Positions 24,511 through 64,000 of a DNA stretch of 64,000 bases are shown piece by piece. The notes under the pieces were generated by a model. It ran no database searches. It saw only the letters and a list, made by a program, of their open reading frames with translations, and was not told the origin of the DNA. The stretch covers positions 2,604,001 through 2,668,000 of the forward strand of contig NZ_CP069421.1 in assembly GCF_018118585.1 (NCBI RefSeq), in the 5' to 3' direction. The first letter of the stretch is position 1, and each line of letters opens with the position of its first letter. The DNA comes from Aristaeella lactis. GTDB taxonomy: Bacteria > Bacillota > Clostridia > Christensenellales > Aristaeellaceae. A program made the position numbers and the translations under genes.

Positions 24511-24595
24511 AGACAGGAAGAGTTTCCGCATTCACCAGGATGAACGAACCCGCGGGATCGTTACGAACGGAATGACGGAGACAAGAGGTGACAGA

Positions 24596-26602: not shown

Positions 26603-26657
26603 ACGAGACAGGAGAACCCCATTGAACATGACCCGGAATCCCGAAGGAGGAGCCTTC

Positions 26658-30665: not shown

Positions 30666-30690
30666 GCATTATTGAGGAGGCTATCCCGAA

Positions 30691-34524: not shown

Positions 34525-34566
34525 TATTCCGGGGTACCTCACTGATCTGAACAAGGAGTCTTCGTC

Positions 34567-43191: not shown

Positions 43192-43232
43192 CAGACAGAG
43201 ATGACCGAATTCCTGTAATGAGGTGACAGCTA

Positions 43233-44672: not shown

Positions 44673-44691
44673 AGGGAAGAAGGACGAAGCA

Positions 44692-45447: not shown

Positions 45448-45457
45448 GGTGTTTTCT

Positions 45458-46348: not shown

Positions 46349-46607
46349 CCTAATTAATTATGTAGTTTAATAAAATGATAAACTAGCAAGCTGATATGTA
46401 CAAGGCTAGCAGATATATCTTGTATAGTATGTTGCCGAACCAATATTCTTTTATTATTCGGTCTACATTTATAAATGCTAAGAGATTGTTGCCTTAAGAG
46501 GTATAAGTTTGCGTAAAGCAGATGATTTTAAGAGCATTTAGAAAATGTAAAATAATAGAGGTGCAAGTTATACTAAGTGATATTATTATACAGAAAAGGG
46601 TATGCGA

Positions 46608-47711: not shown

Positions 47712-47719
47712 ATTCAGAT

Positions 47720-48724: not shown

Positions 48725-48897
48725 ACGCAAAGGGCATAACACTTAAGTAAAAGGATATATTTACTATTACAGGGACTATATACAGAAATAATGTAGTATA
48801 TAAGCTATGTGTAAAAAGACATTTGGGCATATATTATTTTTGTATTATTGTAAAGCAGATATATAAATTCAATGAATAATAAAAGGATGGCATAATA

Positions 48898-50004
48898 ATG
48901 CATTTGGCGAGTAAAAATACAGGTCGACTTGATTATATTGATATGGCTCGTGGATTAGGTATGCTTTCTATTATTATTGGTCATATGGGAAGTTCAGTAG
49001 TTTCTGATATTGTATTTACCTATCATGTGCCATTGTTCTTTTTGATAAGTGGTTTTTTCTATAAAGATAAAATAGAAACAGTAAAAAAATATGCCTGTAG
49101 ACTTTTGAAACCTTATTTTATTACCTGGATTTTACTTATTGTATTATGCACAATAAAAGCTGGAGTAAAAGCCATAGCGAACTCGGAAGAAGTAGGGGGT
49201 GTAATTACCTATAGCATAAAGTATTGGCTAGTCGCAGGACTTTATGGCGGAGGAAGTACATACGCTAACAGTTTTTGGGGATATAACGATATTCCTATTA
49301 TAGGTGCAACTTGGTTTTTTATCGCATTATTATGGGCGATAATCCTACTGTTTTTAATAGAGAAACTAGATATAAAAACATGGAGTAAAACGCTGTTAAG
49401 AGTAATTAAAACATGTATAGTTGGTATTATTTTTTTTGTTGGCTGGTTTTCTGCAAAGTACTCGTGGTGGCCGTTATCAATTCAAGCAGGTTGTACAGGA
49501 CTTGGCTTTCTTTACATTGGATACATGTATCGTTTGTGGAAATTAGATCATAAGAGAGAAGAGGAATATAATAAGTCCAAGTGGTCACAATGGATAATTG
49601 CTATAATAGCTATATTATTGTGGCTACAATCTATTGTTAGAGCTATAAATGTTGAAGATGACACTTCAATGTCACTTGTACGAAACTGGTTTTCGAATCC
49701 TATATTGGACATTGTCGGTGCAGTTTCTGTATCATGGTTAATTGTGCAGGGAATGATAAAAATAGAAAAAAATAGCGAGAAAAAAGCCACGTTGCATATA
49801 ATAAAACGTATACTGGTTTTTTTTGGTGTTTATAGTGATATTATTCTTTGCATACATTTAATTGACATGAATATTATGCCTTGGGACAAGATTTATAGTT
49901 ATGTTCCATTTTATGCTATTGCATTTATATTGATATTCATTTTCAAACTAAGTCTTTATTATGGAGTAACAAAAATCATAACGAGAAGAAAATGTATACT
50001 TTAA
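48898..50004 (+). CDS. Membrane acyltransferase family 3
   Basis: 368 residues, about ten membrane segments. Near the N-terminus are RLDYIDMARGLGMLSIIIGHMG, with the conserved His, and HVPLFFLISGFFYK, both diagnostic of acyltransferase-3 proteins. It probably O-acetylates a sugar of the repeat unit. It is distinct in sequence from the acyltransferase at 15669. AAAAGGATGG precedes the ATG. Confidence 0.9.
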   Translation: MHLASKNTGRLDYIDMARGLGMLSIIIGHMGSSVVSDIVFTYHVPLFFLISGFFYKDKIETVKKYACRLLKPYFITWILLIVLCTIKAGVKAIANSEEVGGVITYSIKYWLVAGLYGGGSTYANSFWGYNDIPIIGATWFFIALLWAIILLFLIEKLDIKTWSKTLLRVIKTCIVGIIFFVGWFSAKYSWWPLSIQAGCTGLGFLYIGYMYRLWKLDHKREEEYNKSKWSQWIIAIIAILLWLQSIVRAINVEDDTSMSLVRNWFSNPILDIVGAVSVSWLIVQGMIKIEKNSEKKATLHIIKRILVFFGVYSDIILCIHLIDMNIMPWDKIYSYVPFYAIAFILIFIFKLSLYYGVTKIITRRKCIL

Positions 50005-50081
50005 TAAATTCTATTTAGGGCAAAAGGAAGAAATTGTATAATCGTATATAATCAGATATATAGTTTATGGAGAAACTAGTA

Positions 50082-51239
50082 ATGAAGATAAAGATGCGAA
50101 CAAATGAAACAATATATATAGGTTGCTATATATTATTTATAGCGACTTGTTATATTTTTCAAGAGATTTTCTATAAACCCCGTGCCATATGGCTGTTTTG
50201 TCCGATTATAGCAATTGGTGTTATTTTATCCATTGTTTTAAACAACCAATGTACAAAAAAAGAGATGATATTGCGTATTTCAATTATTCTGATATTCGGA
50301 ATGGCTGCAATAGTAGATTCAAATGCTAAGATGTTAGTATATGCAGCGCTTTTGTGCGGAGCAGATATGACTTCATTTCGCAGAATTATTAAATGCAGTT
50401 ATTGGACTAGCTTAATAATTGTTGTGTGTACAATGTTGTTAAGTTTTGTCGGCATACTTCCTAATACCGGCGAGTGGGAGCGAAATGGTGTAGTCATTTG
50501 GACCTTTGGATTTGGTTATTATTCGGGTTTGCCATATGCTTTTTTTTATTTGGTACTGGAGCACCTTTATCTTAAGAAAAAGAAAGCGGCATGGTCTGAA
50601 TTGATTGTAATATTGGGCTTAAATTATATAATCTATAAATTAAGCACATTGAGACTTACATATTATCTAATATATCTTGTAATTGTTTTGTATATTGTAT
50701 TAATAAAATTCAATTGGTTCAATTTAAAGAAAAAGTTTTTGCATTATTTGACCATCCTTGTGTACCCTATCACATTTATAGTATCAATATGGGTTAATCA
50801 TGCATTTACTTTCGATAATCCCAGACTGGCAGCAATAAATAAGATGCTTTCGGATCGCATATATTTAGGCCATCAAGCGATGACGTTGTACAAAATAAAA
50901 CTATTTGGTAATAAAATCGAAACGTACAATAATGGTCCATCAGAATATTTTTACGTTGATTGTGGATTTTTGTATTCCCTTTTGGGATATGGCCTTATTT
51001 TTACAGGATTGGTATTGGTCTTTTATGTTTTCCTGCATAATTATTCTGCCCGTACCAATAATAAAATACTATTTATTTGGCTGACGGCAGTAGCAGCGTT
51101 CAGCTTTAGTAATAACACATGGATCAGCATACAATACAATCCGATTCTTCTTTTATTCCCAATTGTGTTGAAAGAATACAGAAGGAAAAAAGCATTATTC
51201 GGAAATGCAAAAAGCGAATTTGACATCGCTTTATGTTAG
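50082..51239 (+). CDS. Polysaccharide polymerase-like membrane protein (Wzy candidate)
   Basis: 385 residues with about ten to eleven membrane segments and little sequence conservation, as is normal for Wzy. A loop before the last segments reads NGPSEYFYVDCGFLYSLLGYGL, and the segment (D-C-x-F-x-x-x-L-x-x-x-G) resembles the C-terminal pattern of EpsG/Wzy-like proteins. ATG 50082 has GGAG nine bases upstream; the ATG at 50067 is possible. Assignment as polymerase comes mainly from topology and its place next to the flippase gene. Confidence 0.65.
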   Translation: MKIKMRTNETIYIGCYILFIATCYIFQEIFYKPRAIWLFCPIIAIGVILSIVLNNQCTKKEMILRISIILIFGMAAIVDSNAKMLVYAALLCGADMTSFRRIIKCSYWTSLIIVVCTMLLSFVGILPNTGEWERNGVVIWTFGFGYYSGLPYAFFYLVLEHLYLKKKKAAWSELIVILGLNYIIYKLSTLRLTYYLIYLVIVLYIVLIKFNWFNLKKKFLHYLTILVYPITFIVSIWVNHAFTFDNPRLAAINKMLSDRIYLGHQAMTLYKIKLFGNKIETYNNGPSEYFYVDCGFLYSLLGYGLIFTGLVLVFYVFLHNYSARTNNKILFIWLTAVAAFSFSNNTWISIQYNPILLLFPIVLKEYRRKKALFGNAKSEFDIALC

Positions 51240-51329
51240 GCTATAGATAGAACAGAATAATATAACGGTTAAATAATTGTGAATAAAACGAACAGAATGT
51301 ACTATGAAAAAACGGAAAGAAGAACAGAA

Positions 51330-52778
51330 ATGCCACAGAAATCTGGACTAAAGAAAAATTTGTTTTTAAGCACATTTTATCAAGTGCTAAAGATGGTTCT
51401 GCCATTGATAACAGCTCCTTATGCGGCTCGTGTTCTTGGAGTGGATGGAACCGGAATATATAGTTATACACACGCTTATGTAACGTATTTTATGCTGTTT
51501 GGAGCATTGGGCATGGTGTCATATGGCGGAAGAGAAATTGCCAGGCATCGAAATAATAAAGATGAGCGGAGTCAGATATTCTGGGAAATTGCCATATTGA
51601 CATTTATCACAACGACAATTTCTCTTTTGGCGTGGGGAATATGGATTCTGTTTAACAGAGAATACAGGATATACTACATTATTCTTACATTTTATCTTGT
51701 GGGGACCATGTTTGATATTTCATGGCTCTATGGTGGAATGGAAGAGTTTAAGTATACGGTCACGCAGAATAGTCTTTTCAAAATTCTCGGTACAATATCA
51801 ATCTTTGTTTTTGTTAAAAAAGCGGAAGATCTCTGGATCTATATACTGATCATGTCTTTAACCGCATGTCTGGCAAATATATCAATGTGGATATATTTGC
51901 CAAAGTTTGTGAATAAGGTGCCTCTAAAGGGAATACGGCTGAAAAAGCATCTAAAGGAAACTTTTATATATTTCATACCTACAATTGCCATATCGGTTTA
52001 CACCATTCTCGATAAAACACTCATAGGATTGATTACACAAGACACAAGCGAAAACGGAAACTATGAGCAAGCGACAAAGATTGTTAATATGGCTAAATCG
52101 GTATGCTTTGCAGGTGTAAACGCAGTATTGCATTCCAGAATCTCTTATCTTTTTACAGAGAAAAAATATGAAGAGATTAAACAAAGAATATCTGCATCCA
52201 TGGATTATATTCTTTTTATTGGAATAGGTATCTGCTTTGGAATAATCGGTGTGGCTCAGAGATTTGTACCGCTATATTTTGGCCCCGGCTATGAAGCAAC
52301 CATACTATTGCTCCAATTAATGTCCCCATTAATCATAATCGTTGGGATTAGCAATTGCTTGGGAGATCAATACTATAATCCGGCGGGATTAAGGGCGCAA
52401 AGTGCAAAATATATTATTACCGGGTCTGTTATAAACTTAATACTAAATCTTATTTTTATACCAAGATTAAAAAGTACAGGAGCCGTAATAGCAACACTTA
52501 TAGCTGAAACGGTTATCTCTGTTTTATATTTTAGCAATTGCAGTGGATATTATCGTCTAAATGTATTTATAAGACAGATATCACGAAAACTGTTTGCTGG
52601 TATAGTAATGATGATTGTAGTATTATTATTGGGAAGTGCGATTGATAATGCTTTTGTATCTGTAATAGTTCAAATACTTACAGGATGTATTGTTTACTGC
52701 GTAAGTCTTCTTTTAATGAAAGATTCGTTCATGACTGATGTAGTTATATTGAATCTGAAAAAACTGATCAAAAAGTAA
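51330..52778 (+). CDS. Wzx-type polysaccharide flippase
   Basis: 482 residues from MPQKSGLKKNLFLSTFYQVL, about twelve to fourteen membrane segments. It has the oligosaccharide-flippase N-terminus PLITAPYAARVLGVDGTGIYSY, typical of the PST family that moves undecaprenyl-linked repeat units across the membrane. The ATG at 51330 is chosen by similarity to the family start and by GGAAAG upstream; an earlier GTG (51279) would add 17 polar residues. With the Wzy-like genes it defines a Wzx/Wzy assembly route. Confidence 0.93.
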   Translation: MPQKSGLKKNLFLSTFYQVLKMVLPLITAPYAARVLGVDGTGIYSYTHAYVTYFMLFGALGMVSYGGREIARHRNNKDERSQIFWEIAILTFITTTISLLAWGIWILFNREYRIYYIILTFYLVGTMFDISWLYGGMEEFKYTVTQNSLFKILGTISIFVFVKKAEDLWIYILIMSLTACLANISMWIYLPKFVNKVPLKGIRLKKHLKETFIYFIPTIAISVYTILDKTLIGLITQDTSENGNYEQATKIVNMAKSVCFAGVNAVLHSRISYLFTEKKYEEIKQRISASMDYILFIGIGICFGIIGVAQRFVPLYFGPGYEATILLLQLMSPLIIIVGISNCLGDQYYNPAGLRAQSAKYIITGSVINLILNLIFIPRLKSTGAVIATLIAETVISVLYFSNCSGYYRLNVFIRQISRKLFAGIVMMIVVLLLGSAIDNAFVSVIVQILTGCIVYCVSLLLMKDSFMTDVVILNLKKLIKK

Positions 52779-52835
52779 CAGTGTTATTCGCACTTGAATT
52801 ATAGATGCTAAAGGCAGGAGGAACAGGAGTAGAAT

Positions 52836-53762
52836 ATGAGCCAATTACCAATAAAAATACACCTTCCGGACGGTTTCCTTGACGAAGAAATAAGAAATGG
52901 ATACACAATCAGTCATGAAATGAAAGAAATATGGGCTGTTGAATTGGATTTGCTGGTGGAATTTGATAGAGTCTGTAAAGAAAACGGATTAAAATACTTT
53001 GCCAGTTGCGGAACAAAACTGGGAGCGGTAAGACATCATGGCTTTATACCGTGGGATGATGATGTCGACGTAATGATGCTGCGTGATGAATACGATAAAC
53101 TATGTAAGATTGCGCCACAGTTATTTGCCTATCCTTATTTTTTCCAGACGGAAGAGACGGACAAAGGCAGTGCGCGGGGACACGCACAGCTTCGCAACAG
53201 TAAAACTACAGCCATATTAAAAAGTGAAGCCAGCATGGGCTTTAAATATAATCAAGGAATATTCCTGGATATTTTCCCGCTGGACAATATTCCTGACGAC
53301 AAAAAACTGTTCGAGGAACAAAGAGAAAAAGGCAATAAAATACATCGAAAACTACTCATGCATTTAAATAAATATCATCCGGAAAATCCTACGTTACGGG
53401 ACAGGCTGATAGTTTTACGGAATCAAGCTCTGTATTATATTAATAGAAATGGATACCAGAAATACTATTATGAGTTTGAAAACATATGTAAGCAATATAA
53501 TGACTCAGAAACAGAATATGTAGCGATGTTAACTTTGGGTTTTAATGACCGCGCATATAGGTTAAGAAAGGATTTTGAGGAATCCATTGATATGGATTTT
53601 GAGTTCATAAAAATACCGGTACCTAAAAACTATGAAGATGCTTTAACCAGGGTTTATGGTGATTGGAGAAAGATTGTTGTTGGTGAAAATGACCACGGTG
53701 AAGTTATTTTTTCTGCAACTGAACCATATACAGAGTATTTTAAGGGAAAGCATTCCCGATAA
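52836..53762 (+). CDS. LicD-family phosphotransferase (first of three)
   Basis: 308 residues. LicD/fukutin-type domain with ELDLLVEFDRVCKENGLKYF, GTKLGAVRHHGFIPWDDDVDV, whose acidic cluster binds metal, and then GIFLDIFPLDNIP. Known LicD proteins transfer phosphocholine from CDP-choline to teichoic acid or lipopolysaccharide sugars. Here no choline genes are seen, but CTP-activating and phosphonate enzymes are next door, so the donor could be a CMP-phosphonate. The gene is still in the AT-rich block and lies 22 bp before the cytidylyltransferase-PEP mutase gene. Confidence 0.93.
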   Translation: MSQLPIKIHLPDGFLDEEIRNGYTISHEMKEIWAVELDLLVEFDRVCKENGLKYFASCGTKLGAVRHHGFIPWDDDVDVMMLRDEYDKLCKIAPQLFAYPYFFQTEETDKGSARGHAQLRNSKTTAILKSEASMGFKYNQGIFLDIFPLDNIPDDKKLFEEQREKGNKIHRKLLMHLNKYHPENPTLRDRLIVLRNQALYYINRNGYQKYYYEFENICKQYNDSETEYVAMLTLGFNDRAYRLRKDFEESIDMDFEFIKIPVPKNYEDALTRVYGDWRKIVVGENDHGEVIFSATEPYTEYFKGKHSR

Positions 53763-53784
53763 AGATAATCAGGAGGTATAAAAA

Positions 53785-55077
53785 ATGGTTTACACATGTT
53801 TCTGCACAGACATTATTCACGAAGGACACCTGAACATCATAAACGAATGCAAAAAACTTGGGGGAAAGCTTGTAGTCGGAGTCTTATGCGATTCAGAAAT
53901 GGTGCGATACAACAGATTTCCAACAATATCTCAGCAAGAGAGAGTTGAACTTGTAAAATCGATTGCCGGTGTTGACGAAGTTGTTGTGCAAAACCATATT
54001 TTTTACGATGAAATCTTCGAAAACTTACATCCTGATTATATTGTTCATGGCAATAACTGGTCATCTGATTCTATGCAGACAATCAAAAAGAATATAGAAA
54101 GTCTCATAGAGAAGCACGGTGGTAAACTTGTTGAGGTTCCTTATACAAGAAATCCTGACATCCAGAAGATTGACAGACAAATGCATGAGAAACTCTCTAT
54201 GCCTGAATTCCGGAGGGGAAGGCTCAAGAAGCTTATTAATATAGTCCCTATTGTGAAAACTTGTGAGGTTCATAGCGGGCTGACTGGTCTGCTGGTTGAG
54301 AAAACAGTGGTCAGTAATGGGGAAGCAATAGATCAGTTTGATGCTATGTGGGTCAGCTCTCTTTGTGACAGCACAGAAAAAGGAAAGCCCGACATAGAAC
54401 TCGTTGATATGACCAGCCGTTTTCGTACAATTGAAGATGTAATGGAAGTAACAACAAAGCCGATCATTTTCGATGGTGATACTGGGGGCCTGACGGAGCA
54501 TTTTGTTTATACTGTTCGCAGTCTGGAGCGGATGGGCGTCAGCGCTGTAATTATCGAAGATAAAACAGGATTGAAAAAGAACAGCCTGTTTGGAACAGAG
54601 GTTGAACAAACTCAAGCTAGTATTGAAGAATTCAGTGCTAAAATTGCGGCCGGGAAAAATGCACAGTTATCTGATGATTTTATGATTATTGCGAGGATCG
54701 AGAGCCTGATTCTCGAAAAGGGTATGGAAGATGCATTGGCGAGAGCCAGGGCATTTGTTAAAGCCGGAGCAGATGGTATTATGATTCACAGCCGCCGTAA
54801 AGAACCCGATGAGATTCTGGAATTCTGCGACAGGTTCCGCGCAGAAAATAAGAAAACACCCATTGTAGTAGTTCCAAGTTCATTTAATGTAATTACAGAA
54901 GAAGAATTGGCAAAGCATGGAGTGAATATTTGTATTTATGCCAATCAGCTTCTCAGGGCTGCCTTCCCGGCTATGGAGAATGCGGCCAGAAGTATCCTTA
55001 CTCATCATAGGGCTAAAGAAATCGACAGTGAATTAATGCCGATCAAGCAGATTATTACATTAATCGATGAACTGTAA
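53785..55077 (+). CDS. pepM: Cytidylyltransferase - PEP mutase fusion
   Basis: 430 residues. Residues 1-~130 are a TagD-like cytidylyltransferase (MVYTCFCTDIIHEGHLNII, HEGH motif, later YIVHGNNW). From ~150 a PEP mutase domain follows with DGDTGGLTEHFVYTVRSLER and EDKTGLKKNS at 258-267, the PEP mutase signature. It makes phosphonopyruvate from PEP. It is like the protein at 24596 without the first nucleotidyltransferase domain, which is here supplied by separate or fused genes nearby. AGGAGGT is seven bases before the ATG. PEP mutase equilibrium favours PEP, so the decarboxylase at 60614 should pull the reaction. Confidence 0.94.
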   Translation: MVYTCFCTDIIHEGHLNIINECKKLGGKLVVGVLCDSEMVRYNRFPTISQQERVELVKSIAGVDEVVVQNHIFYDEIFENLHPDYIVHGNNWSSDSMQTIKKNIESLIEKHGGKLVEVPYTRNPDIQKIDRQMHEKLSMPEFRRGRLKKLINIVPIVKTCEVHSGLTGLLVEKTVVSNGEAIDQFDAMWVSSLCDSTEKGKPDIELVDMTSRFRTIEDVMEVTTKPIIFDGDTGGLTEHFVYTVRSLERMGVSAVIIEDKTGLKKNSLFGTEVEQTQASIEEFSAKIAAGKNAQLSDDFMIIARIESLILEKGMEDALARARAFVKAGADGIMIHSRRKEPDEILEFCDRFRAENKKTPIVVVPSSFNVITEEELAKHGVNICIYANQLLRAAFPAMENAARSILTHHRAKEIDSELMPIKQIITLIDEL

Positions 55078-55089
55078 TGAGGAATTGCT

Positions 55090-55950
55090 ATGAAAAAAGG
55101 CACAGGGGTTATAACCGGTGAAGATTTCCGTAGAATGCAGCTGCTGGAATTGGATATGTTGGTTGAGATGGACAGAATCTGTCGGAAACATAATATCCGA
55201 TATACTATAACAAGCGGAACACTTCTGGGTGCTGTCAGACATAAGGGATATATACCCTGGGATGACGATGCAGATGTAGCAATGCTACGGGAAGAGTATG
55301 AAAAGTTCAGGAGAGTATCCCATGAATTGAACCCTGAAATATGTTTTTTTCAGGATCATGATACTGAAAAAGAATACATATGGGGATACGGAAAACTTCG
55401 AAGGACAGGAACGACATATATCCGGCCCGGCCAGGAAAAACAGAAGTTCAGAACTGGGGTTTATGTGGATATTATGCCCTGTGATGATATCCCCAAGTCG
55501 GTTCCCGGTCAGATGATTATGGATTTTTATTGCTTTTGTCTCAGAAAGATTCTCTGGTCCAACATCGGGAAAGATGATACGAAAAATCCAATCCTTGAGA
55601 GGATAATGTATAAAATGCTGTCAAGGATTAATCCGGAATTCGTGTTTAAACGTATTGGTAAAATGGCTGCGAGAAGTTCAAATAAAAGTCCAAATCTTGT
55701 TCGGGTACTGATGTTGCCATCAGGTGGAAAAGAACGGAAGTTATATTCCGGGAAAAATAGTGTGTCTACCCGATATGGCAGTCCCAAAGAATGGTACCTG
55801 GATGTGATAGAAATGGACTTTGAAGGGCATAAACTGTATGGAACGAAAAACTATGATCAATACCTGATATCACGTTATGGAGATTACATGGCTCTTCCTC
55901 CGGAGGAGAAACGGATTGGAAAAGCCCCTGCGTCAATCTGGGAGTTTTAA
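55090..55950 (+). CDS. LicD-family phosphotransferase (second of three)
   Basis: 286 residues with ELDMLVEMDRICRKHNIRYT, GTLLGAVRHKGYIPWDDDAD and VYVDIMPCDDIPKS. It is clearly paralogous to the LicD at 56685, with the same order of motifs and length (for example WGYGKLRRTG versus WGYGKIRKTG) and a nearly identical C-terminal ending PPEEKRIGKA/PPEEKRIPKV. ATG 12 bp after the PEP mutase stop, with GAGGA upstream. Role inferred: transfer of a phosphoryl or phosphonyl group from a CMP donor to glycan. Confidence 0.93.
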   Translation: MKKGTGVITGEDFRRMQLLELDMLVEMDRICRKHNIRYTITSGTLLGAVRHKGYIPWDDDADVAMLREEYEKFRRVSHELNPEICFFQDHDTEKEYIWGYGKLRRTGTTYIRPGQEKQKFRTGVYVDIMPCDDIPKSVPGQMIMDFYCFCLRKILWSNIGKDDTKNPILERIMYKMLSRINPEFVFKRIGKMAARSSNKSPNLVRVLMLPSGGKERKLYSGKNSVSTRYGSPKEWYLDVIEMDFEGHKLYGTKNYDQYLISRYGDYMALPPEEKRIGKAPASIWEF

Positions 55951-56682
55951 ATGAGCAGAATAGCAATCCTGTCAGATATACACGGAAATTTATACGCACT
56001 GGAGAAAGTTGTACAAGATATGGACTCACGCTGTATTGATCAGGCGATTCTTTTGGGTGATCTGATTGACTATGGCATGCAGTCAAATGAAGTGGTTGCT
56101 TATATTATGAACCATTTTCATTATCCTCTTGTATGCAGTATATGGGGGAATCATGAAAAAGCCATTTTGACTTCAAATTTCAATGGCTTTTCCAGCCAAC
56201 GCGGGGTGGACTGTGCTAAACATACCGCCTCTTTACTTACCACTGAAACGACTGATTATTTGAACCGGGAACTGATTCATGATGGTTTCTGCGAATTCAG
56301 TCTGGATAATAAAAAAGCTCTGGCGATTCATGGATCGCTTGATAATCCCTACTGGAAAGCGATTATGCCCGGTAATCTGCGCGGGGATTACAGGGAATAT
56401 GACATTGTGCTGTCCGGCCATTCTCATTATCCCCATGTATTAACAGAGTTCTATGACAACGAGGACCCGGTACACAGGAACAAGCATGCGGTTATATTTA
56501 TCAATCCGGGGTCGGTAGGACAGCCAAGAAATCACAATCCCGCTGCACAATATGCCATTCTGGATACCGATACTTTTTCTGTCAGTCTTATAGCAGTAAA
56601 ATATGATGTTGTATCAGCAATGGCACTGTATGATGATAGTGTTGATTCGTTTTACAGGACAAGACTTGAAACTGGAGTATAA
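55951..56682 (+). CDS. Metallophosphoesterase between two LicD genes
   Basis: 243 residues of the calcineurin-like fold: AILSDIHGNLYALEKV (D-x-H), LLGDLIDYG (G-D), SIWGNHEKAIL (G-N-H) and VLSGHSHYPH (G-H-x-H), so all metal ligands are present. It starts on the base after the preceding stop and the next gene starts two bases after its stop, so the three genes form a tight unit. It resembles YfcE/MJ0936-like phosphodiesterases. It might remove phospho- or phosphono-diesters or recycle a by-product; substrate unknown. Confidence 0.9.
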   Translation: MSRIAILSDIHGNLYALEKVVQDMDSRCIDQAILLGDLIDYGMQSNEVVAYIMNHFHYPLVCSIWGNHEKAILTSNFNGFSSQRGVDCAKHTASLLTTETTDYLNRELIHDGFCEFSLDNKKALAIHGSLDNPYWKAIMPGNLRGDYREYDIVLSGHSHYPHVLTEFYDNEDPVHRNKHAVIFINPGSVGQPRNHNPAAQYAILDTDTFSVSLIAVKYDVVSAMALYDDSVDSFYRTRLETGV

Positions 56683-56684
56683 GT

Positions 56685-57566
56685 ATGGAAGGAATGCTGA
56701 CTGATTTTAGCAGAATCTATGTGGATAAGGAAAATGATGCGCCTTTATCCCAGGAGGAATTTAGAAGGCTGCAGCTGGTCGAATTATGTATCCTGAAGGA
56801 ATTTGATCGGATATGCCGGAAAAACCAAATAAATTATACCATCAGTTGCGGCACCCTTCTGGGAGCTGTCAGACATAAGGGATTCATTCCGTGGGATGAT
56901 GATGCGGATATTTCCATGTTGCGGGAAGACTATGAGAAGTTCCGTAAAGTAGCGAATCAGATGGATCCGGATATATGTTTTTTTCAGGATCATAATACGG
57001 ATCCGGGATATCTTTGGGGTTATGGGAAAATCCGTAAAACAGGAACATGTCATATCCGTTCAGGGCAGGAACATATTAATTGCAAAAACGGAGTATATAT
57101 TGATATATTTCCGCTGGATGGAATTCCGCGAAGCACGGTTGGACAGATTATGCAGGATATCCATTGTTTTTTTGTTCGTAAAATGCTGTGGGCCCGGGTC
57201 GGCAAGGAAACTGCTAAAGGATTGCTGAAAATATGGTATAAATGTGTTTCTCATATTCCCGTAGAAAAAATCTATCAGCATTTAAACAAAATGATCAAAA
57301 AGTATAACGAGAAAAACCCGGAAAGGGTAAGACTGCTTATGTATCCGTCATTTGGAAAGCTTTATGTAAAAAACACACTGAAAACCCGTTTTGGAATGCC
57401 AAGAAAATGGTATACAGATCTCATTGATTATCCTTTTGAAGATACTGTGCTTCGAGGAATGAGAGATTATGATGCTGCCATGAAATACATGTATGATGAC
57501 TATATGACACCACCGCCGGAGGAAAAACGTATTCCCAAAGTATCATTTTCAAAAATCCGTTTTTAA
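56685..57566 (+). CDS. LicD-family phosphotransferase (third of three)
   Basis: 293 residues with LVELCILKEFDRICRKNQI, GTLLGAVRHKGFIPWDDDAD and VYIDIFPLDGIPRS. Closest relative in the window is the LicD at 55090. Three LicD genes in 5 kb suggest either three acceptor positions on the repeat unit or different donors. GGAG is seven bases before the ATG. Confidence 0.93.
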   Translation: MEGMLTDFSRIYVDKENDAPLSQEEFRRLQLVELCILKEFDRICRKNQINYTISCGTLLGAVRHKGFIPWDDDADISMLREDYEKFRKVANQMDPDICFFQDHNTDPGYLWGYGKIRKTGTCHIRSGQEHINCKNGVYIDIFPLDGIPRSTVGQIMQDIHCFFVRKMLWARVGKETAKGLLKIWYKCVSHIPVEKIYQHLNKMIKKYNEKNPERVRLLMYPSFGKLYVKNTLKTRFGMPRKWYTDLIDYPFEDTVLRGMRDYDAAMKYMYDDYMTPPPEEKRIPKVSFSKIRF

Positions 57567-57616
57567 TATGTTAAATAAATAAGCGCCTGAAAGGGCATCG
57601 GAAGGAGAACAGAAAA

Positions 57617-58618
57617 ATGAAACTGTATGTAATTAGTGGTGTAACAGGGATGACAGGTAATGAACTTGTGCGTCAGATTCTGGTGGATGGATCCAAGGAT
57701 AAGGTGATCGGTTTTGATAATTTCTATGCATCCTCAATTGAGACGGTCAGTGACCATATTGATGACGAGCGGTTTATATTTTTTGAATATGATCTGAACA
57801 ATAAACAGCAGATGGCGGAGATTGAAAAGATTGTAAAAGCACAGAAGAGCCAATATGATGAAGTAATTTATATCAATTGTGCTGCTGTTGTTCATACTGA
57901 ACATTTCTATCATGTTTATGAAACCTTTGAGACCAACGTTGAAGGAATGAACGCATTTCTTCAGCAGGCCATCCGAGTCGGAGCACATAAATTTATCAAC
58001 TGTTCGACTTCGGAGGTTTATTCCATGAATTCCTGGAATGAAGACGGCGGTGTGAAAGAAAACGATTATCTTACCATGGCAGTTGCAGAACATAGCCAGA
58101 GGACCAGTTATGCTACAGGTAAACTGTTGACAGAGTTTTTCATCAAAGATGCGGTGGATACCGGAAAGATTCTGGGCTGCTCTATCCGCTTTGCAAATGT
58201 TTATAGCCGGAATGAAAGATTTCCCAAACATATTATTCCTTTCATTATTAACAGCTTTAAAAATGAAGGGAAAGTAGTTCTGCTTGAAAACAGCAGAAAG
58301 AACCGCAGGACTTTTCTAAATAATTATGATAGCTGTAGTGCCGTCCTTGCTCTGGCAGGAACGAACAGTGCATTGGACGGGACAGTTTATAATGTGGCTA
58401 CGGATGAGGAGATTTCCATTATTGATCTGGCACGGCTGTGTGCAAAGAAGATGGGAATAGAAAATCCGAAGATTGAATTCAGCGGTTATCGGGAATCTGA
58501 TCCGGAAAGAAGGTTGCTGTCTACCAGGAAGATTCGTGAGAGAACGGGCTGGAAACCTCAGGTTGATCTGGAGAAGGGTCTGAATGAATGCATTGAAAAC
58601 TATCTGGCGGAGAACTGA
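57617..58618 (+). CDS. Extended-SDR NAD-dependent epimerase/dehydratase
   Basis: 333 residues. Rossmann motif GVTGMTGNELVRQIL at the start (G-x-x-G-x-x-G), FEYDLNN region, NCSTSEVY, catalytic SYATGK (Y-x-x-x-K near residue 172) and RFANVYSRNERFPKHI. This is a typical nucleotide-sugar epimerase or dehydratase and could make a sugar of the repeat unit. AAGGAGAAC precedes the ATG. Whether its substrate is a sugar or a phosphonate cannot be judged from sequence. Confidence 0.9.
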   Translation: MKLYVISGVTGMTGNELVRQILVDGSKDKVIGFDNFYASSIETVSDHIDDERFIFFEYDLNNKQQMAEIEKIVKAQKSQYDEVIYINCAAVVHTEHFYHVYETFETNVEGMNAFLQQAIRVGAHKFINCSTSEVYSMNSWNEDGGVKENDYLTMAVAEHSQRTSYATGKLLTEFFIKDAVDTGKILGCSIRFANVYSRNERFPKHIIPFIINSFKNEGKVVLLENSRKNRRTFLNNYDSCSAVLALAGTNSALDGTVYNVATDEEISIIDLARLCAKKMGIENPKIEFSGYRESDPERRLLSTRKIRERTGWKPQVDLEKGLNECIENYLAEN

Positions 58619-58620
58619 TT

Positions 58621-59382
58621 ATGAGAGCAGCAATTATTACTGTGGCCGGAATATCCAGCAGATTCAATGAAGGAATTCCCGAAGAGCAGAAAATACTTAA
58701 GGCAATCTATAATGAACATAATCCACAAGACACACTTTTGGTTCACTTGATTGAAAAATGTGCTTTTGCTGATCGGATCATTATTGTTGGAGGATATATG
58801 TTTGATCAGCTGCAAAGCTTTGTATCTGTGAATCTGCAGAAAAGCTTTCCGCAGCTTGTTCTCGTCCGGAATGATCACTATGCGGATCTTGCTTCCGGTT
58901 ATAGCCTTTATCTTGGAATTAACAAAGCGTTGGATCTTGGTGCAGATGAGCTGCTTTTTGTAGAAGGTGATCTGGATATCGATGACGAGTCCTTTAAAAA
59001 GATTGTGGATGCAGAACATACAGTATTAACGTACACAACTGAACCGATTTATGCTAACAAGGCAGTTGTTTTGTATAAAAATGAGGAGGATCGTTTTCAG
59101 TATGCATTCAACAGTGTCCATGGGTTGCTGCGTATTGATAATGCCTTTTCCTGTATTTTAAACTCTGGCCAAGCCTGGAAATTTGATAATATGGAAGCGC
59201 TTAAAAAAGCCAATGAATTGTTTTTCAGCATGAAAAAAGATGGCACAAATCTATGGATTATTCAGCAATACATAGACAGCGTGCCTTCGGATACTATCAG
59301 CTTGGTTAAGCTGGAAAGATGGACTAACTGTAATACCAGAGAAGATTACAATAAAATCTTGGAAGGCTGGAGGAAAAAATAA
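58621..59382 (+). CDS. Stand-alone nucleotidyltransferase-like protein
   Basis: 253 residues. The N-terminus MRAAIITVAGISSRFNEG is a nucleotidyltransferase signature (x-G-x-x-S/T-R), and LLFVEGDLDIDDESF supplies the acidic metal-binding segment. The glycine-rich loop is less canonical (AGISSRFN) than in the fused domains (NSGLGSRMG). It may be a LicC-like CTP transferase for the phosphonate or for a polyol phosphate. Its stop overlaps the start of the next gene (TAATG), so the two are translationally coupled. Confidence 0.75.
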   Translation: MRAAIITVAGISSRFNEGIPEEQKILKAIYNEHNPQDTLLVHLIEKCAFADRIIIVGGYMFDQLQSFVSVNLQKSFPQLVLVRNDHYADLASGYSLYLGINKALDLGADELLFVEGDLDIDDESFKKIVDAEHTVLTYTTEPIYANKAVVLYKNEEDRFQYAFNSVHGLLRIDNAFSCILNSGQAWKFDNMEALKKANELFFSMKKDGTNLWIIQQYIDSVPSDTISLVKLERWTNCNTREDYNKILEGWRKK

Positions 59383-60563
59383 TGAAGGCATTGCAGACAA
59401 GGCTGGCAACGGTTGAGAGAAATATCAAAAGCCAGGCTATAACCGTGATGATTATTGGACTGGGAAGCGTTGGTACATATTTGCTGGATTATCTTGTGGG
59501 AAGCAACGATGAAGCTATCAGAGTAGTTGTTGTCGGACGGAACCGTGACAAAATGGAGCAGAACGTGAATATAGTTCGGGTTGCTGCTCTGATTCGTGGT
59601 CGGAACAAAACAAGAGTTGATATCCAGGATGGTGTGGATCTTGAGGATATTGCTTCTATTCAGGCAGCCATAGAAAAGCAAAAGCCGGATTTTATTGTGA
59701 ATTCAAGCCGAGCTTATCCGGGATTGAAATACGGAAGTATCAGCTGGACCAATGTACGTGCTTACGGAATCTGGACGCCTCTTTCTATCCGCTTTACGAA
59801 AAATGTTATGGAAGCCTGCAATAAAGCAGACTCTGATGCTATTGTAATCAATACATCATATTCTGATGCTGTTATTCCATGGTTGAAAAGCGCGGGTAAA
59901 GCATATCCGGACTTTGGTTCCGGGAATCTGAATCATCTGATCCCTCGTATTAAATTTGCCGCAGCCCAAATGCTTGATGTGAAGGACTTCTGGAATATAG
60001 ATGTTGCTTTTGCTGCAGGCCATTTCCATGATGTATGTATCAGCAAGGAAGGCCAGACGGAGGGGGTGGAGTTGCCGCTGAAGATTTATTACCACGGAGA
60101 AGAAAAGACATTGGATCATCAGCAGATCTACAGCCGCTGTAAAATTCCGATGCCTGTAGATGCACAGCGGAACATGATGAACGCCTCGAGTAATTACCGG
60201 ATTATTGATGCAATCATATCAGCCATCCGCACCGGAAAAGAAGAGAGAATTTTTTCTCCTGGTGTCTTTGGTGAAATCGGTGGTTATCCTGTATTGATTG
60301 GTTGCCGGGATGGAAAGACAGATGCCTGGATAGATGAATCTGTCTTCACATTTGATGAAATGAACAGAGCCAACAGAGCATCCATGTTTTTGGATGGCGT
60401 GGAAGATGTCAGGGATGGAACACTTTTTTATACAGAACAATTGATTGCCAAAGCCAAAAAGGCTTTCGGAGTGGAACTTCCCAAAAAAGTCGCATTTGAG
60501 GATATTGAGGATGTTGCCAGATTTATTATTGAAAGGATTATAAAACCACAGTTGGGGCAATAA
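59382..60563 (+). CDS. NAD(P)-binding oxidoreductase of unknown substrate
   Basis: 393 residues. A Rossmann motif is near the N-terminus (VMIIGLGSVGTYLLDYLVG), followed by VVVGRNRDKMEQN, so it binds NAD or NADP. Features such as DFIVNSSRAYPGLKYG and INTSYSDAVIPWLK suggest a lactate/malate or saccharopine dehydrogenase-like fold, but I recognise no precise family. It is coupled to the nucleotidyltransferase gene by a one-base overlap and lies directly upstream of the phosphonopyruvate decarboxylase, so a role in phosphonate tailoring is a reasonable guess only. Confidence 0.7.
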   Translation: MKALQTRLATVERNIKSQAITVMIIGLGSVGTYLLDYLVGSNDEAIRVVVVGRNRDKMEQNVNIVRVAALIRGRNKTRVDIQDGVDLEDIASIQAAIEKQKPDFIVNSSRAYPGLKYGSISWTNVRAYGIWTPLSIRFTKNVMEACNKADSDAIVINTSYSDAVIPWLKSAGKAYPDFGSGNLNHLIPRIKFAAAQMLDVKDFWNIDVAFAAGHFHDVCISKEGQTEGVELPLKIYYHGEEKTLDHQQIYSRCKIPMPVDAQRNMMNASSNYRIIDAIISAIRTGKEERIFSPGVFGEIGGYPVLIGCRDGKTDAWIDESVFTFDEMNRANRASMFLDGVEDVRDGTLFYTEQLIAKAKKAFGVELPKKVAFEDIEDVARFIIERIIKPQLGQ

Positions 60564-60613
60564 TATCTGAATGAATTCAAAACACTAGAAAGTCTGGGAG
60601 TTGGAAGAATAAT

Positions 60614-61735
60614 ATGAACGTTGATAAATTGATTAAAATTATTGGTTCTGATTTCTATACCGGTGTTCCGGACAGCCAGCTCAAAGCACTGTGCAATTAT
60701 CTGATGGCAACCTATGGTATAGATCCAAAGCATCATATCATTGCCGCAAATGAGGGCAACTGTACTGCACTGGCGGCCGGATATCATCTGGCGACCGGAA
60801 AAGTTTCGGTTGTCTATATGCAGAATTCCGGAGAGGGTAATATCATCAATCCGGTGGCAAGTTTGCTGAACGACAAGGTATACGCTATTCCTGTGGTTTT
60901 TATTGTGGGCTGGCGCGGCGAACCCGGAATTCATGATGAACCGCAGCATATTTATCAGGGCGAAGTAACGGTCAAGCTCCTGGAGGATATGGATATTGCT
61001 ACCTTCATCATTGGGAAGGATACCACGGATGAAGAAGTGGAGGAGGCAATGGAAAGCTTCAGGGCCGTTCTGGCAACCGGCAAGGATGTTGCTTTTGTAA
61101 TTCGGAAGGGTGCTCTGACGAATGCACCTAAAGTGGAATACAAAAACAACAATACCATGGTGCGAGAGAAGATTATCCAGCATATTGTTAAGGCGAGCGG
61201 AGAAGATCCGATTGTCAGCACTACGGGCAAAGCCAGTCGGGAATTGTTTGAAACGAGAGTAGCGAACGGACAGAGCCATAAATATGATTTCCTGACGGTT
61301 GGTTCCATGGGCCATAGTTCCTCTATTGCATTGGGAGTAGCTATCAACAAGCCGGAACAGAAGATCTGGTGTGTGGACGGTGACGGCGCTGTATTGATGC
61401 ATATGGGTGCTATGGCAGTCATGGGGGTAAACAAACCGAAGAATCTTGTGCATGTGGTCATCAATAATGGTGCCCATGAAACTGTCGGAGGAATGCCCAC
61501 AGTGGCAGGCAGTGTTGACCTGGTGGGTATTGCGAAGGCCTGCGGTTATCCGTATGCTGTAAGGGTGGATAGTTTTGAAAAGCTTGATAAAGAACTGCAA
61601 GCAGCAAAAGAACGCAATGAACTAAGCATGATTGAAGTAGCCTGCTCTATCGGGGCAAGAGAGGATCTGGGAAGGCCGACAACAACAGCACGGGAAAATA
61701 AGCAGAACTTTATGACTTATTTATCCACTTTGTAA
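60614..61735 (+). CDS. ppd: Phosphonopyruvate decarboxylase
   Basis: 373 residues of the thiamine-diphosphate enzyme family. The N-terminal half has FYTGVPDSQLKALCNYL, IAANEGNCTALAAGYHLATG with the catalytic Glu, and QNSGEGNIINP. The C-terminal cofactor domain has VGSMGHSSSIALGVA and the ThDP motif GDGAVLMHMGAMAV. These are hallmarks of phosphonopyruvate decarboxylase (AepY/Ppd), which makes phosphonoacetaldehyde and drives the PEP mutase reaction forward. The related sulfopyruvate decarboxylase is usually split in two subunits, and PEP mutase is nearby, so Ppd is preferred. Confidence 0.94.
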   Translation: MNVDKLIKIIGSDFYTGVPDSQLKALCNYLMATYGIDPKHHIIAANEGNCTALAAGYHLATGKVSVVYMQNSGEGNIINPVASLLNDKVYAIPVVFIVGWRGEPGIHDEPQHIYQGEVTVKLLEDMDIATFIIGKDTTDEEVEEAMESFRAVLATGKDVAFVIRKGALTNAPKVEYKNNNTMVREKIIQHIVKASGEDPIVSTTGKASRELFETRVANGQSHKYDFLTVGSMGHSSSIALGVAINKPEQKIWCVDGDGAVLMHMGAMAVMGVNKPKNLVHVVINNGAHETVGGMPTVAGSVDLVGIAKACGYPYAVRVDSFEKLDKELQAAKERNELSMIEVACSIGAREDLGRPTTTARENKQNFMTYLSTL

Positions 61736-61779
61736 ATCATAATAAGTAGAGTAAAAGAAAATATAAGCGAGGTTTGGCA

Positions 61780-64000
61780 ATGAAAGCGTTGATTCTGAAT
61801 TCAGGCATGGGAACACGAATGGGTGTTCTTGCTTCAGAACATCCGAAATGTATGACCGAAATCTCTCCTCAGGAAACTTTACTCAGCAGACAGCTCAATC
61901 AATTATATGAGGCGGGAATACGTGAAGTAGTTATGACAACCGGCCGGTTTGAGCAGGTTCTGGTAAACTATTGTGAGTCTTTGGATTTGCCGATTAATAT
62001 TATCTATTGCAATAATCCCCGTTTCGCAGATACCAATTATATCTATTCGATCTATCTGGCAAGGGAATATCTGGATGATGATATTCTGCTTATGCATGGA
62101 GATCTGGTAGTTGACAGCGAGATTCTGGAAAATATTCTGGCCAATAAAGGAAGCTGTATGGCCGTTAGTTCAACAGTTGCGCTTCCGGAAAAGGATTTCA
62201 AGGCTGTTATAAAAAACGGTAAAATAACGAAAGTTGGTATTGAGTTTTATAATGACGCTGAGGCTGCTCAGCCTTTATACAAACTGGACAGAAAGGATTG
62301 GCAGATTTGGCTGGATAAGATAATTGAATACTGTGAATCAGGAAATACATCCTGTTATGCTGAAAATGCCTTCAATGAGGTGTCTGAGAACTGCTGCATT
62401 TATCCTTATGATTGCAAGGACATGCTCTGCGGTGAGGTGGATACAGCGGAAGATCTGGCAGTGATGAAAAATCGTCTGCAGGAAATTAAAAACCGCAGCG
62501 TATATATGTGTTTCGCCACCGATATTATTCATGCGGGTCATATGAGCCTGATCAAAAAGGCTCGTAAATTGGGAAAGCTAACGGTAGGTATTCTTTCAGA
62601 TGAGGCTATATCCCAATACAGGCGGGCTTCTGTTCTTTCAGCAGAGGATCGTAAAGAAATGATGAGCAATATTGTCGGTGTCAGTCGGGTTGTGGATCAG
62701 GACACACTTTCATATAAGAAGAATCTTCTTAAGCTAAAACCAGACATTGTTGTGCACGGGGACGACTGGAAAACGGGATATCAGAAAGAAATCCGTGAGG
62801 AAGTAATTGCCATTCTGTCTACCTATGGCGGAAAACTTGTTGAGTATCCTTATACACATGATGAAAAATATGAGTTCATCGATCGTAAAATTGAAAATAG
62901 TCTTTATGCAAACCATCGTGTTTTGGAAGCATCGCCGAATTATGCAGAACTGGACGGATATATCCGCGGTAAAGAATTACATAAAATTATGCTGGTTCAT
63001 GGTGCTTCTCTGAATCGTTTTCCTCTGAAAGAATACTTTTATCAACTACCTCACAGGCTTAACACACAAATCGTCTACTTCAGCGATTTCAAACCCAATC
63101 CCGCTTACGAATCTGTGGTTAACGGTGTTCGGCTTTTTAAGGAATCAGGCTGTGACGGCATTATTGCTATTGGCGGCGGAAGCGCAATGGATGTTGCCAA
63201 ATGCATTAAACTGTTTGCTAACATGAAGGATGACGAGGATTTTCTGGACCAGAAAATTGTGCCCAATGAGATTCCGCTGATTGCCATTCCTACAACAGCT
63301 GGAACGGGTTCAGAGGCGACGAGATTTGCGGTTGTTTACCGGAAAGGAGAAAAACTTTCCATTACGGATTCAAGTTGTATTCCTGCTTTGACTTTATTTG
63401 ATGTATCTTTGCTTGATTCCCTGCCATTGTATCAGAGAAAGGCTACCATGATGGATGCGCTCTGTCATGCGATTGAAAGCAGCTGGTCTATAAACAGTAC
63501 AGAAGAAAGCAGTAAATATGCTCACTCCGCGATTGAACTTGTGATTAAGTATAAAGATGCTTATCTAAACAATGAAAAGCAAGGCAATCGCGGGATGATG
63601 GAGGCAGCTTATCTGGCGGGTAAAGCCATCAATATTTCCCAGACTACCAGTGCTCATGCCATGAGTTATAAACTTACCAGTCTTTTCGGATTAGCGCACG
63701 GACATGCTGTGGCTATTTGCCTTAGGAAGATTTTCCCTTATATGCTGAAGCATCTGGATAAAACAGTTGATCCACGAGGAAAAGGTTATCTCAGGGATGT
63801 TTTTCAGCAGATATCGGAATGCCTTGGATGTCGGAATCCCGAAGAAGGCGCTTTGTATTTGGAAAACATGATAAACGCGTTGGAGTTTGATATTCCAGAG
63901 CCTACTGAGGAACAGTACCGGATTCTGGCACATTCGGTAAATGTAATCAGACTGAAAAACAATCCTGTGGAGTTGTCTGTTGAAGATATTGATGAACTAT
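61780..64000 (+). CDS. Nucleotidyltransferase - cytidylyltransferase - iron alcohol dehydrogenase fusion (partial at window end)
   Basis: At least 740 residues; the frame is open to the last base. Residues 1-~235: nucleotidyltransferase (MKALILNSGMGTRMG, HPKCMTE). Residues ~240-370: cytidylyltransferase with HAGH at 251-254 and VVHGDDW, aligned residue for residue with the protein at 24596. From ~400: iron-dependent alcohol dehydrogenase with GGGSAMD at 465-471, PTTAGTGSEATRF, and metal ligands around His563 (LCHAIES) and HGH 640-642. Related dehydrogenases reduce phosphonoacetaldehyde to 2-hydroxyethylphosphonate. The enzyme may make the alcohol and activate it as a CMP derivative in one chain. 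ATG 61780 follows GAGG. Confidence 0.9.
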   Translation, partial: MKALILNSGMGTRMGVLASEHPKCMTEISPQETLLSRQLNQLYEAGIREVVMTTGRFEQVLVNYCESLDLPINIIYCNNPRFADTNYIYSIYLAREYLDDDILLMHGDLVVDSEILENILANKGSCMAVSSTVALPEKDFKAVIKNGKITKVGIEFYNDAEAAQPLYKLDRKDWQIWLDKIIEYCESGNTSCYAENAFNEVSENCCIYPYDCKDMLCGEVDTAEDLAVMKNRLQEIKNRSVYMCFATDIIHAGHMSLIKKARKLGKLTVGILSDEAISQYRRASVLSAEDRKEMMSNIVGVSRVVDQDTLSYKKNLLKLKPDIVVHGDDWKTGYQKEIREEVIAILSTYGGKLVEYPYTHDEKYEFIDRKIENSLYANHRVLEASPNYAELDGYIRGKELHKIMLVHGASLNRFPLKEYFYQLPHRLNTQIVYFSDFKPNPAYESVVNGVRLFKESGCDGIIAIGGGSAMDVAKCIKLFANMKDDEDFLDQKIVPNEIPLIAIPTTAGTGSEATRFAVVYRKGEKLSITDSSCIPALTLFDVSLLDSLPLYQRKATMMDALCHAIESSWSINSTEESSKYAHSAIELVIKYKDAYLNNEKQGNRGMMEAAYLAGKAINISQTTSAHAMSYKLTSLFGLAHGHAVAICLRKIFPYMLKHLDKTVDPRGKGYLRDVFQQISECLGCRNPEEGALYLENMINALEFDIPEPTEEQYRILAHSVNVIRLKNNPVELSVEDIDEL

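Follow-up and report, generated by a model that had tools for sequence, protein, structure and literature searches.

Phosphonate, LicD and importer genes in a horizontally exchanged surface-polysaccharide cassette of Aristaeella lactis

The Lic pathway for phosphocholine consists of LicB-LicA-LicC-LicD, and in the fosfomycin pathway Fom1, a 2-hydroxyethylphosphonate (HEP) cytidylyltransferase-PEP mutase, is reported to make CMP-HEP. The cassette described here shares with the former the logic of import, CTP activation and LicD, but a kinase would be dispensable if a phosphonate is imported, and its own LicC has the PntC-type Glu. With Fom1 it shares the architecture of cytidylyltransferase (CyTase) and PEP mutase; here, however, the Fom1-type CyTase is fused to an iron alcohol dehydrogenase (FeADH), the CyTase of the PEP mutase lies outside the Fom1 clade, and the context is that of a polysaccharide. 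PEP mutase, nucleotidyltransferase fusions and a CMP-activated phosphonate are also common to the Pnt pathway, and its description (Rice et al. 2019, PMC6697681) has, as here, LicD-like phosphotransferases or glycosyltransferases nearby and a proposed surface target. As presented there, the Pnt pathway uses AEP with a transaminase, whereas our cassette lacks a transaminase and has a Fom1-type CyTase joined to an FeADH, besides an importer and the type-B module defined below. The AepSTU, AepXVW and PhnSTUV transporters (PMC8316502) resemble the importer found here in their PF13343 binding protein, and AEP models are its best matches. They feed AEP to the cell as a nutrient, whereas this importer adjoins an activating enzyme and scores under the equivalog cut-offs.

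The window is a stretch of 64,000 nucleotides (contig NZ_CP069421.1, positions 2,604,001 to 2,668,000), and the genes placed below between 52836 and 64000 are on the + strand. As the original prediction had stated, there are three genes for LicD-family phosphotransferases, LicD1 (52836..53762; 162 bits, with a WDDDVD stretch recognised by eye), LicD2 (55090..55950; 139.8 bits) and LicD3 (56685..57566; 149.1 bits), against a PF04991 cut-off of 22.6. LicD1 is followed by a CyTase (PF01467)-PEP mutase fusion with Fom1-like architecture (53785..55077). Its PEP mutase and the phosphonopyruvate decarboxylase (Ppd, 60614..61735) had both been named correctly, scoring 402.5 bits against 319.6 (TIGR02320) and 462 bits against 312.5 (TIGR03297). 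The type-B module comprises a calcineurin-type metallophosphoesterase (55951..56682; PF12850, 78 bits), an extended SDR similar to NDP-sugar dehydratases/epimerases (57617..58618), a DUF6564 protein that is a predicted nucleotidyltransferase of the PntC/LicC fold (58621..59382; PF20202, 345 bits) and SacDH, a dehydrogenase of predicted LDH/MDH fold (59382..60563). A trifunctional protein composed of NTP_transferase, Fom1-type CyTase and FeADH starts at 61774 and runs to the window edge at 64000, the gene ending at window-equivalent 64020. The two kinds of cytidylyltransferase domain (PF01467 twice, PF12804/PF00483 once) and the iron alcohol dehydrogenase expected from the first reading are present, the latter as the FeADH part of this fusion. 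A further PEP mutase, which the original prediction had overlooked and which takes the form of a triple fusion, lies elsewhere in the window at 24572-26602.

These genes are part of a 25 kb block, from the initiating sugar transferase to the importer (43218 to window-equivalent 68697, with 43218..64000 inside the window, + strand). Its DNA is 97.6-98.8% identical to that of a sister species (G175), whereas the aligned pieces flanking it show 64-87% identity. The block therefore moves as one polysaccharide cassette. It holds the initiating sugar transferase, glycosyltransferases, an acyltransferase, an unassigned membrane protein and a flippase (PF02397, PF14393, PF00535, PF00534, PF01757 and PF01943), together with the LicDs, the phosphonate genes, LicC and the importer; 50067-51239 had no Pfam match. 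Of the proposal that LicD attaches the phosphonate to the glycan, the glycan part is supported by this co-transfer of phosphonate and polysaccharide genes, while transfer of the phosphonate by LicD is plausible.

A route to HEP is well supported by the domain fusion, the Fom1 clade, a substrate-site residue and the absence of an AEP transaminase. The PEP mutase has the EDKxxxxxNS motif in the form EDKTGLKKNS. Its attached CyTase is 34.2% identical to that of Fom1 and falls outside the Fom1-type clade, and the CyTase of the trifunctional protein, with 49.2% identity and the HxGH motif as HAGH, belongs with Fom1 to a clade of 31 members (support 1.0 in a set of 117 domains). This clade is formed by Fom1, 25 domains from NTP-CyTase-PEP mutase or NTP-CyTase-FeADH fusions and five CyTase-PEP mutases from the phylum sample (L077, L078, L079, L085 and L088); in four of these five loci the nearby FeADH matches reach just 27-30%, under the count limit. 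Members other than Fom1 are 47.5-60% identical to it, against 34-47% for the other 86 CyTase domains, and the same separation was obtained (UFBoot 100) with a smaller set of 93 sequences that leaves out several domains and all of the phylum loci. The AEP transaminase PhnW is missing from 25 of the 28 other loci in the clade, and the three that have it (L103, L108 and L109) each also carry another CyTase-PEP mutase that is not of this kind. Among 19 family loci with the triple fusion, FeADH and Ppd adjoin in nine and PhnW in none. Twenty such loci had been chosen among strong matches, and L031 was not counted because it is a sister copy of this cassette; several of the stretches end at contig ends, which lowers the counts of LicD and other neighbours. 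The site of PntC E104 / LicC D105, an amine contact according to PMC6697681, is His in 8/8 NTP domains counted (rows L086, L087 and L089, trimmed at the wrong end of the fusion, excluded), and the LicC-like domain of the trifunctional protein has no amine-contact acid of the AEP enzymes. No AEP transaminase, the mark of the AEP form of the Pnt pathway, was found in the locus or the genome (TIGR03301, best 43 bits against 360.8; four transaminases of relatives gave 447-460 bits), so that its predicted absence holds genome-wide. Long open frames had suggested a single four-domain NTP-CyTase-PEP mutase-FeADH protein, which was rejected, as the neighbourhoods show separate adjacent genes. The occurrence of NTP domain and CyTase together in one protein was counted against the overall reading given below. 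Synthesis and CTP activation of HEP, as originally proposed, are thus supported. HEP as the only product is probably too simple, because just past the window edge there is a PntC-like LicC, together with an importer akin to those for AEP, and the four type-B genes are a separate recurrent phosphonate module.

The type-B module was found in 9 of 80 named PEP-mutase loci. These 80 scored best among 580 confirmed relatives, which favours close kin of our PEP mutase, and they are not a random sample. Within that set none of the nine has PhnW or FeADH; the present cassette has an FeADH in addition to the module. The phosphoesterase is present in eight of the nine, and the ninth (L119) ends at a contig end. 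The SDR is 65-83% identical to that of the window across eight other type-B loci, and its comparison matched dehydratases, decarboxylases and epimerases alike, giving type B no substrate. The DUF6564 model (pLDDT 91.8) has PntC (6pd2) as Foldseek rank 1, E 6.8e-13, nearly tied with an inositol-phosphate cytidylyltransferase (4jd0, 9.3e-13) and LicC (1.3e-12). Identity to PntC and LicC chains is 13-19%, and hhalign gave 79% over 108 N-terminal columns. The modelled protein is therefore predicted to have the PntC/LicC fold, a feature that the original prediction had missed; the fold does not point to one substrate. No PLP enzyme was seen in the module, so its product is probably without an amine, but the amine site of DUF6564 is Glu and not His (3/3 aligned), which speaks against such a product. 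For SacDH (pLDDT 86.9), 50/50 among the Foldseek matches listed are lactate or malate dehydrogenases, with TM 0.48-0.56 on the query. A saccharopine-dehydrogenase fold was discarded, since Pfam matches the Rossmann part only and the structural matches listed are of the LDH/MDH type. Sequence searches of the PDB with SacDH gave weak matches only, and distant relatives on plasmids (15 records) had no annotated PEP mutase in the six neighbourhoods read. DUF6564 and SacDH each occur in 1 of 398 phylum genomes, their own. The type-B route looks undescribed, and the cassette points to a function class for DUF6564.

Beyond base 64000 the operon continues with genes that the original prediction had missed: a LicC/PntC-like gene (window-equivalent 64078-64971) and an ABC importer with binding protein (64981-66096), ATPase (66183-66977) and permease (66943-68547). 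The LicC is homologous to LicC 1jyk (E 2.5e-22), and has the metal Asp and the PntC-type Glu, with EAD at the amine-contact site; this Glu is invariant in 24/24 aligned LicCs, its own included. Among LicC relatives with at least 48% identity, PhnW accompanies 30 of 32 and an importer without PhnW the other two; the clade of our LicC (35 members, support 0.994) has 30 PhnW-linked and 5 importer-linked members. The LicC-importer pair was found again in L133 and L138. In L133 a 26% PhnW match was discarded under the 40% limit that applies to these LicC counts and to the PhnW loci counted below, and L131, whose 38% match is probably a LicC-transaminase fusion, was counted as having no PhnW, being below the same limit. 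Importer and LicC together perhaps form a kinase-free system for AEP scavenging.

Taken together, the locus likely encodes a surface polysaccharide with phosphonate decorations and is exchanged horizontally as a cassette. From the family assignments, PEP mutase would form phosphonopyruvate and Ppd would convert it to phosphonoacetaldehyde. Fusion, clade and residue suggest that the trifunctional protein carries out the next two steps, with its FeADH part reducing phosphonoacetaldehyde to HEP and its Fom1-type CyTase converting HEP to CMP-HEP. In parallel, LicC may convert AEP taken up by the importer to CMP-AEP; with AEP imported, kinase and transaminase would not be needed. SDR, MDH-fold dehydrogenase, DUF6564 and phosphoesterase may produce an additional, probably amine-free phosphonate and activate it. 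With the CMP-phosphonates as donors, the LicDs would then attach phosphonyl groups to the glycan or to its lipid-linked repeat, and export through the encoded flippase would follow.

Other readings were weighed. A small secreted phosphonate antibiotic, made as fosfomycin is with Fom1, would agree with the Fom1-type CyTase, but it is very improbable: no fosfomycin-type late enzyme was seen among the annotated genes of the block, and the phosphonate genes sit within and move with polysaccharide genes. The donor of the LicDs may instead be a conventional CDP-alditol or CDP-choline, with another transferase of the locus attaching the phosphonate, so that phosphonate and phosphate substituents coexist. 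This would fit the only NCBIfam model that matches the LicDs, cholinephosphotransferase, which scores 72-81 bits, under its cut-off of 225, and the absence of LicD from 51/61 PhnW loci (best 80 of 580 relatives). We consider it unlikely. No choline kinase of the Lic phosphocholine pathway was found genome-wide above the PF01633 cut-off (a single match, 24.6 bits against 29), as had been predicted, and among the genes annotated here the glycerol-3-phosphate cytidylyltransferase model matched only the two phosphonate CyTase domains (31 and 42 of 165 bits). LicD is also commoner beside type B (6/9 loci) than beside PhnW (10/61), within the best 80 of 580 (p 0.003, uncorrected for relatedness). 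LicD as a general partner of PEP mutases was rejected on the PhnW count; it is also absent from 16 of the 19 family triple-fusion loci. By descent, LicD1 groups with the LicDs of L095 and L108 (support 0.76), LicD2 and LicD3 are sisters (0.99), and agreement of LicD clades with locus types is weak (supports 0.36-0.76); the two other LicDs of the genome share a clade with those of PEP-mutase loci L045 and L108 (0.95). LicD-like phosphotransferases near CMP-AEP genes are already on record in Rice et al. (PMC6697681).

The importer leaves room for another cargo, such as a sugar phosphate, phosphocholine or iron, which is possible but doubtful. None of its three proteins reaches the equivalog cut-off of the AEP importer set (TIGR03261/03265/03262): the binding protein has 172 bits against 393, and the other two 311 against 458 and 357 against 593. 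The solved structures nearest to the binding protein are described in their depositions as binders of iron(III) and of pyridoxal phosphate, and its Pfam family also includes iron and sulphate binders (PMC8316502). Against this, AEP type-2 models lead clearly for the permease (357 bits, next model 116) and the binding protein (172 bits, next 54, itself an AEP model), while for the ATPase a polyamine model follows the AEP model closely, at 287 bits. The binding protein contains PF13343, the family of AepX, AepS and PhnS (PMC8316502), and adjoins this LicC where PhnW is missing. By its best-scoring models the importer would be related to the AEP importer family, and only that. A single product is also conceivable, if rather improbable: type B as well as the trifunctional protein would supply CMP-HEP, redundantly or stepwise, and the importer-LicC pair would be a leftover. 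Both routes have the same PEP mutase and Ppd, and by its modelled fold SacDH could be an alternative phosphonoacetaldehyde reductase; type B, however, brings a predicted PntC-fold protein of its own, whose amine-contact site has Glu in place of His, and the pairing of LicC with an importer has counterparts in L133 and L138.

We therefore keep the reading of a phosphonate-decorating cassette in which, probably, three routes, one known, one based on scavenging and one seemingly undescribed, feed CTP-activated phosphonates to the surface sugar coat. A bolder version, offered tentatively, is that three CMP-phosphonates (own HEP, scavenged AEP and a third made through SDR, MDH-fold dehydrogenase and DUF6564) supply up to three LicDs, so that a single polysaccharide bears a mosaic of phosphonates; in that case DUF6564 would represent a novel branch among the phosphonate cytidylyltransferases, and the importer together with LicC would amount to a Lic pathway free of kinase. 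The cassette offers pairs for study, the trifunctional protein with LicD for HEP and importer, LicC and LicD for AEP, and type B is a compact module of a handful of genes. In these bacteria, phosphonate chemistry would move between species within a surface-polysaccharide cassette.

The region carries, on one strand and in this order, LicD1, a CyTase-PEP mutase fusion, LicD2, a metallophosphoesterase, LicD3, an extended SDR, DUF6564, a dehydrogenase of predicted LDH/MDH fold (here called SacDH, 59382..60563), a phosphonopyruvate decarboxylase (Ppd) and a trifunctional NTP_transferase-CyTase-FeADH fusion (61774 onward). LicD, PEP mutase and Ppd exceed their profile cut-offs, and the PEP mutase of the CyTase-PEP mutase fusion has the EDKxxxxxNS motif. 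The LicD motif was recognised by eye, and the FeADH metal site, judged likewise, is probably intact. The window sits within a 3.4 Mb contig, and the operon extends beyond base 64000, where a LicC-like gene is followed by three genes for an ABC importer. Functions of all locus proteins were predicted from sequence, neighbourhood and modelled structure. Some names of metagenome contigs may be wrong; L115, L123 and L131, on contigs labelled Methanobrevibacter, have PEP-mutase/LicD loci resembling those on Lachnospiraceae-labelled contigs, and these labels are probably incorrect.

The stretch from 43218 to window-equivalent 68697 is 97.6-98.8% identical to that of another genome of the genus (G175). 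Identity is 64-87% in the aligned pieces of the left flank, with 84% at the triple fusion described below, and 72-84% in those of the right flank; a conserved 3.1 kb ribosomal region shows 95%. The block starts at an initiating sugar transferase (PF02397) and ends just beyond the permease. Therefore the phosphonate genes, LicDs, glycosyltransferases, flippase (PF01943) and importer moved together, and this joint movement is the strongest argument for this polysaccharide as the destination of the phosphonate.

The original prediction was that the cell makes 2-hydroxyethylphosphonate (HEP), activates it with CTP and attaches it to the glycan through LicD. The best solved relative of the trifunctional protein is Fom1 (5x3d), matched through its CyTase with 125 bits; the CyTase fused to PEP mutase reaches 84.5 bits. 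The Fom1 CyTase yields CMP-HEP, according to excerpts of PMC6697681. A tree of 117 CyTase domains, including phylum-sample loci, has a Fom1 clade of 31 members (support 1.0): Fom1, 25 domains from NTP-CyTase-PEP mutase or NTP-CyTase-FeADH fusions and five phylum-sample CyTase-PEP mutases. The remaining 86, our own PEP-mutase-fused CyTase among them, lie outside. Besides our locus, the clade draws on 28 loci, 25 of which lack the AEP transaminase PhnW; the three that have it, L103, L108 and L109, also encode a second CyTase-PEP mutase, which is of the other kind. FeADH and Ppd adjoin the NTP_transferase-CyTase-PEP mutase triple fusion in 9 of 19 fetched loci of the family, and none of the 19 has PhnW. 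The LicC-like domain of NTP-CyTase fusions has His at the site of the amine-contacting Glu104 of PntC and Asp105 of LicC (8/8 counted). Because, in addition to the Fom1 clade and the His site, no AEP transaminase exceeded the cut-off in a genome-wide profile search, the HEP route is kept as the best reading of the predicted branch of the trifunctional protein.

Five loci (L077, L078, L079, L085, L088) have Fom1-clade CyTase-PEP mutase fusions without PhnW, four of them with distant FeADH (27-30%) and NTP genes close by, and are probably further HEP loci. In the window, a second PEP mutase (24572-26602) is a triple fusion with a Fom1-type CyTase and no directly adjoining FeADH or Ppd. It is immediately followed by three consecutive very large paralogues (26622-38079) with papain-like (C1) protease, Big_2 and DUF4214 domains. 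A second Ppd (L005 11851-12981; G000:C1:941851-942981), 52% identical and with 429 bits to TIGR03297, adjoins a class I aminotransferase and a PGA_cap capsule-type protein, far away from the genome's two PEP mutases.

An AEP branch may act beyond the window. In 32 of 95 PEP-mutase loci (80 named, the best 80 of 580, and 15 of the phylum sample), a LicC shares 48% identity or more with our own. Thirty of these have PhnW, two (L133, L138) have the importer without PhnW, as does our locus, and none has neither. The transaminases of four PhnW loci score 447-460 bits (cut-off 360.8). Our LicC falls inside a PhnW-linked clade (35 members, support 0.994) and carries the PntC-type Glu at the amine-contact site. 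The importer binding protein belongs to PF13343, a family that covers proteins binding iron or sulphate as well as AepX, AepS and PhnS (PMC8316502), and all three importer proteins missed the AEP equivalog cut-offs. We infer, with moderate confidence, that ready-made AEP is taken up and directly CMP-activated by LicC. We read a putative helix-turn-helix at the N-terminus of our LicC; a Pfam search of it gave no such domain. In L133 (4095-5935) and L138 (4098-5932), a tandem LicC pair precedes the importer; one member carries Asp at its second acid site where the other has Glu (WDQ vs WEQ), and perhaps the two make different CMP donors.

CyTase-PEP mutase, phosphoesterase, SDR, DUF6564, SacDH and Ppd co-occur in nine of the 80 named loci (best 80 of 580), here called type B, with PEP mutase in the first or the penultimate position. 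No PhnW of at least 40% identity and no FeADH of at least 36% occurs in any of the nine, two of which (L115, L119) are truncated by contig ends. Type B is joined to the FeADH fusion in our locus and its G175 copy. SacDH and DUF6564 each occur in one of 398 phylum genomes, that of the window. Within the genus, 2 of 45 genomes have SacDH. The DUF6564 model (high confidence, pLDDT 91.8) matches PntC first in Foldseek, with inositol-phosphate cytidylyltransferase and LicC scoring almost equally, so the predicted fold would indicate a nucleotidyltransferase and not its substrate; its profile agrees with the LicC set over the N-terminal part. For SacDH (pLDDT 86.9), the 50 matches listed are lactate or malate dehydrogenases (TM 0.48-0.56 on query). 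Type B may make a third phosphonate. The module shows no PLP enzyme, which suggests an amine-free product, although the Glu that DUF6564 has at the amine site (3/3 aligned) speaks against this. Rhizobial plasmid relatives of SacDH (L175-L178, 25-31% identical) adjoin alanine racemase and HAD hydrolase genes, two of them near FAD/2Fe-2S oxidoreductase genes.

LicD is present in 6 of 9 type-B loci versus 10 of 61 PhnW loci (Fisher p 0.003, ignoring relatedness and with counts lowered by short contigs), and in 3 of 19 triple-fusion loci of the family. Three of the genome's five LicDs lie in this region. The other two cluster with LicDs of PEP-mutase loci L045 and L108 (support 0.95), one lies among glycosyltransferase-like genes, and no phosphonate panel gene was found within about 8 kb of either. 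LicD is, on these counts and neighbourhoods, a frequent but not general partner of phosphonate loci, with a putative use of CMP-phosphonates.

According to Rice et al. 2019 (PMC6697681), a fusion with a nucleotidyltransferase domain is present in about 60% of PEP mutases; PF01467 is the partner in 23.6% and both kinds of domain in 2.9%. The paper also mentions LicD-like phosphotransferases in AEP neighbourhoods. In the open-licence literature this was the only paper found for LicD with phosphonate; none was found for LicD, phosphonate and PepM together, for DUF6564 by name or, by title and abstract opening, for a HEP-LicD locus. Parts of PMC9381506, PMC8931226 and PMC12413058 discuss polysaccharides or dissolved polymers that carry HEP or AEP, and part of PMC10035134 a Methanocorpusculum cluster of adh, PPM and PPD. 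The cassette as a whole most likely belongs with the Pnt pathway, as a variant, and type B is the part likeliest to be new.
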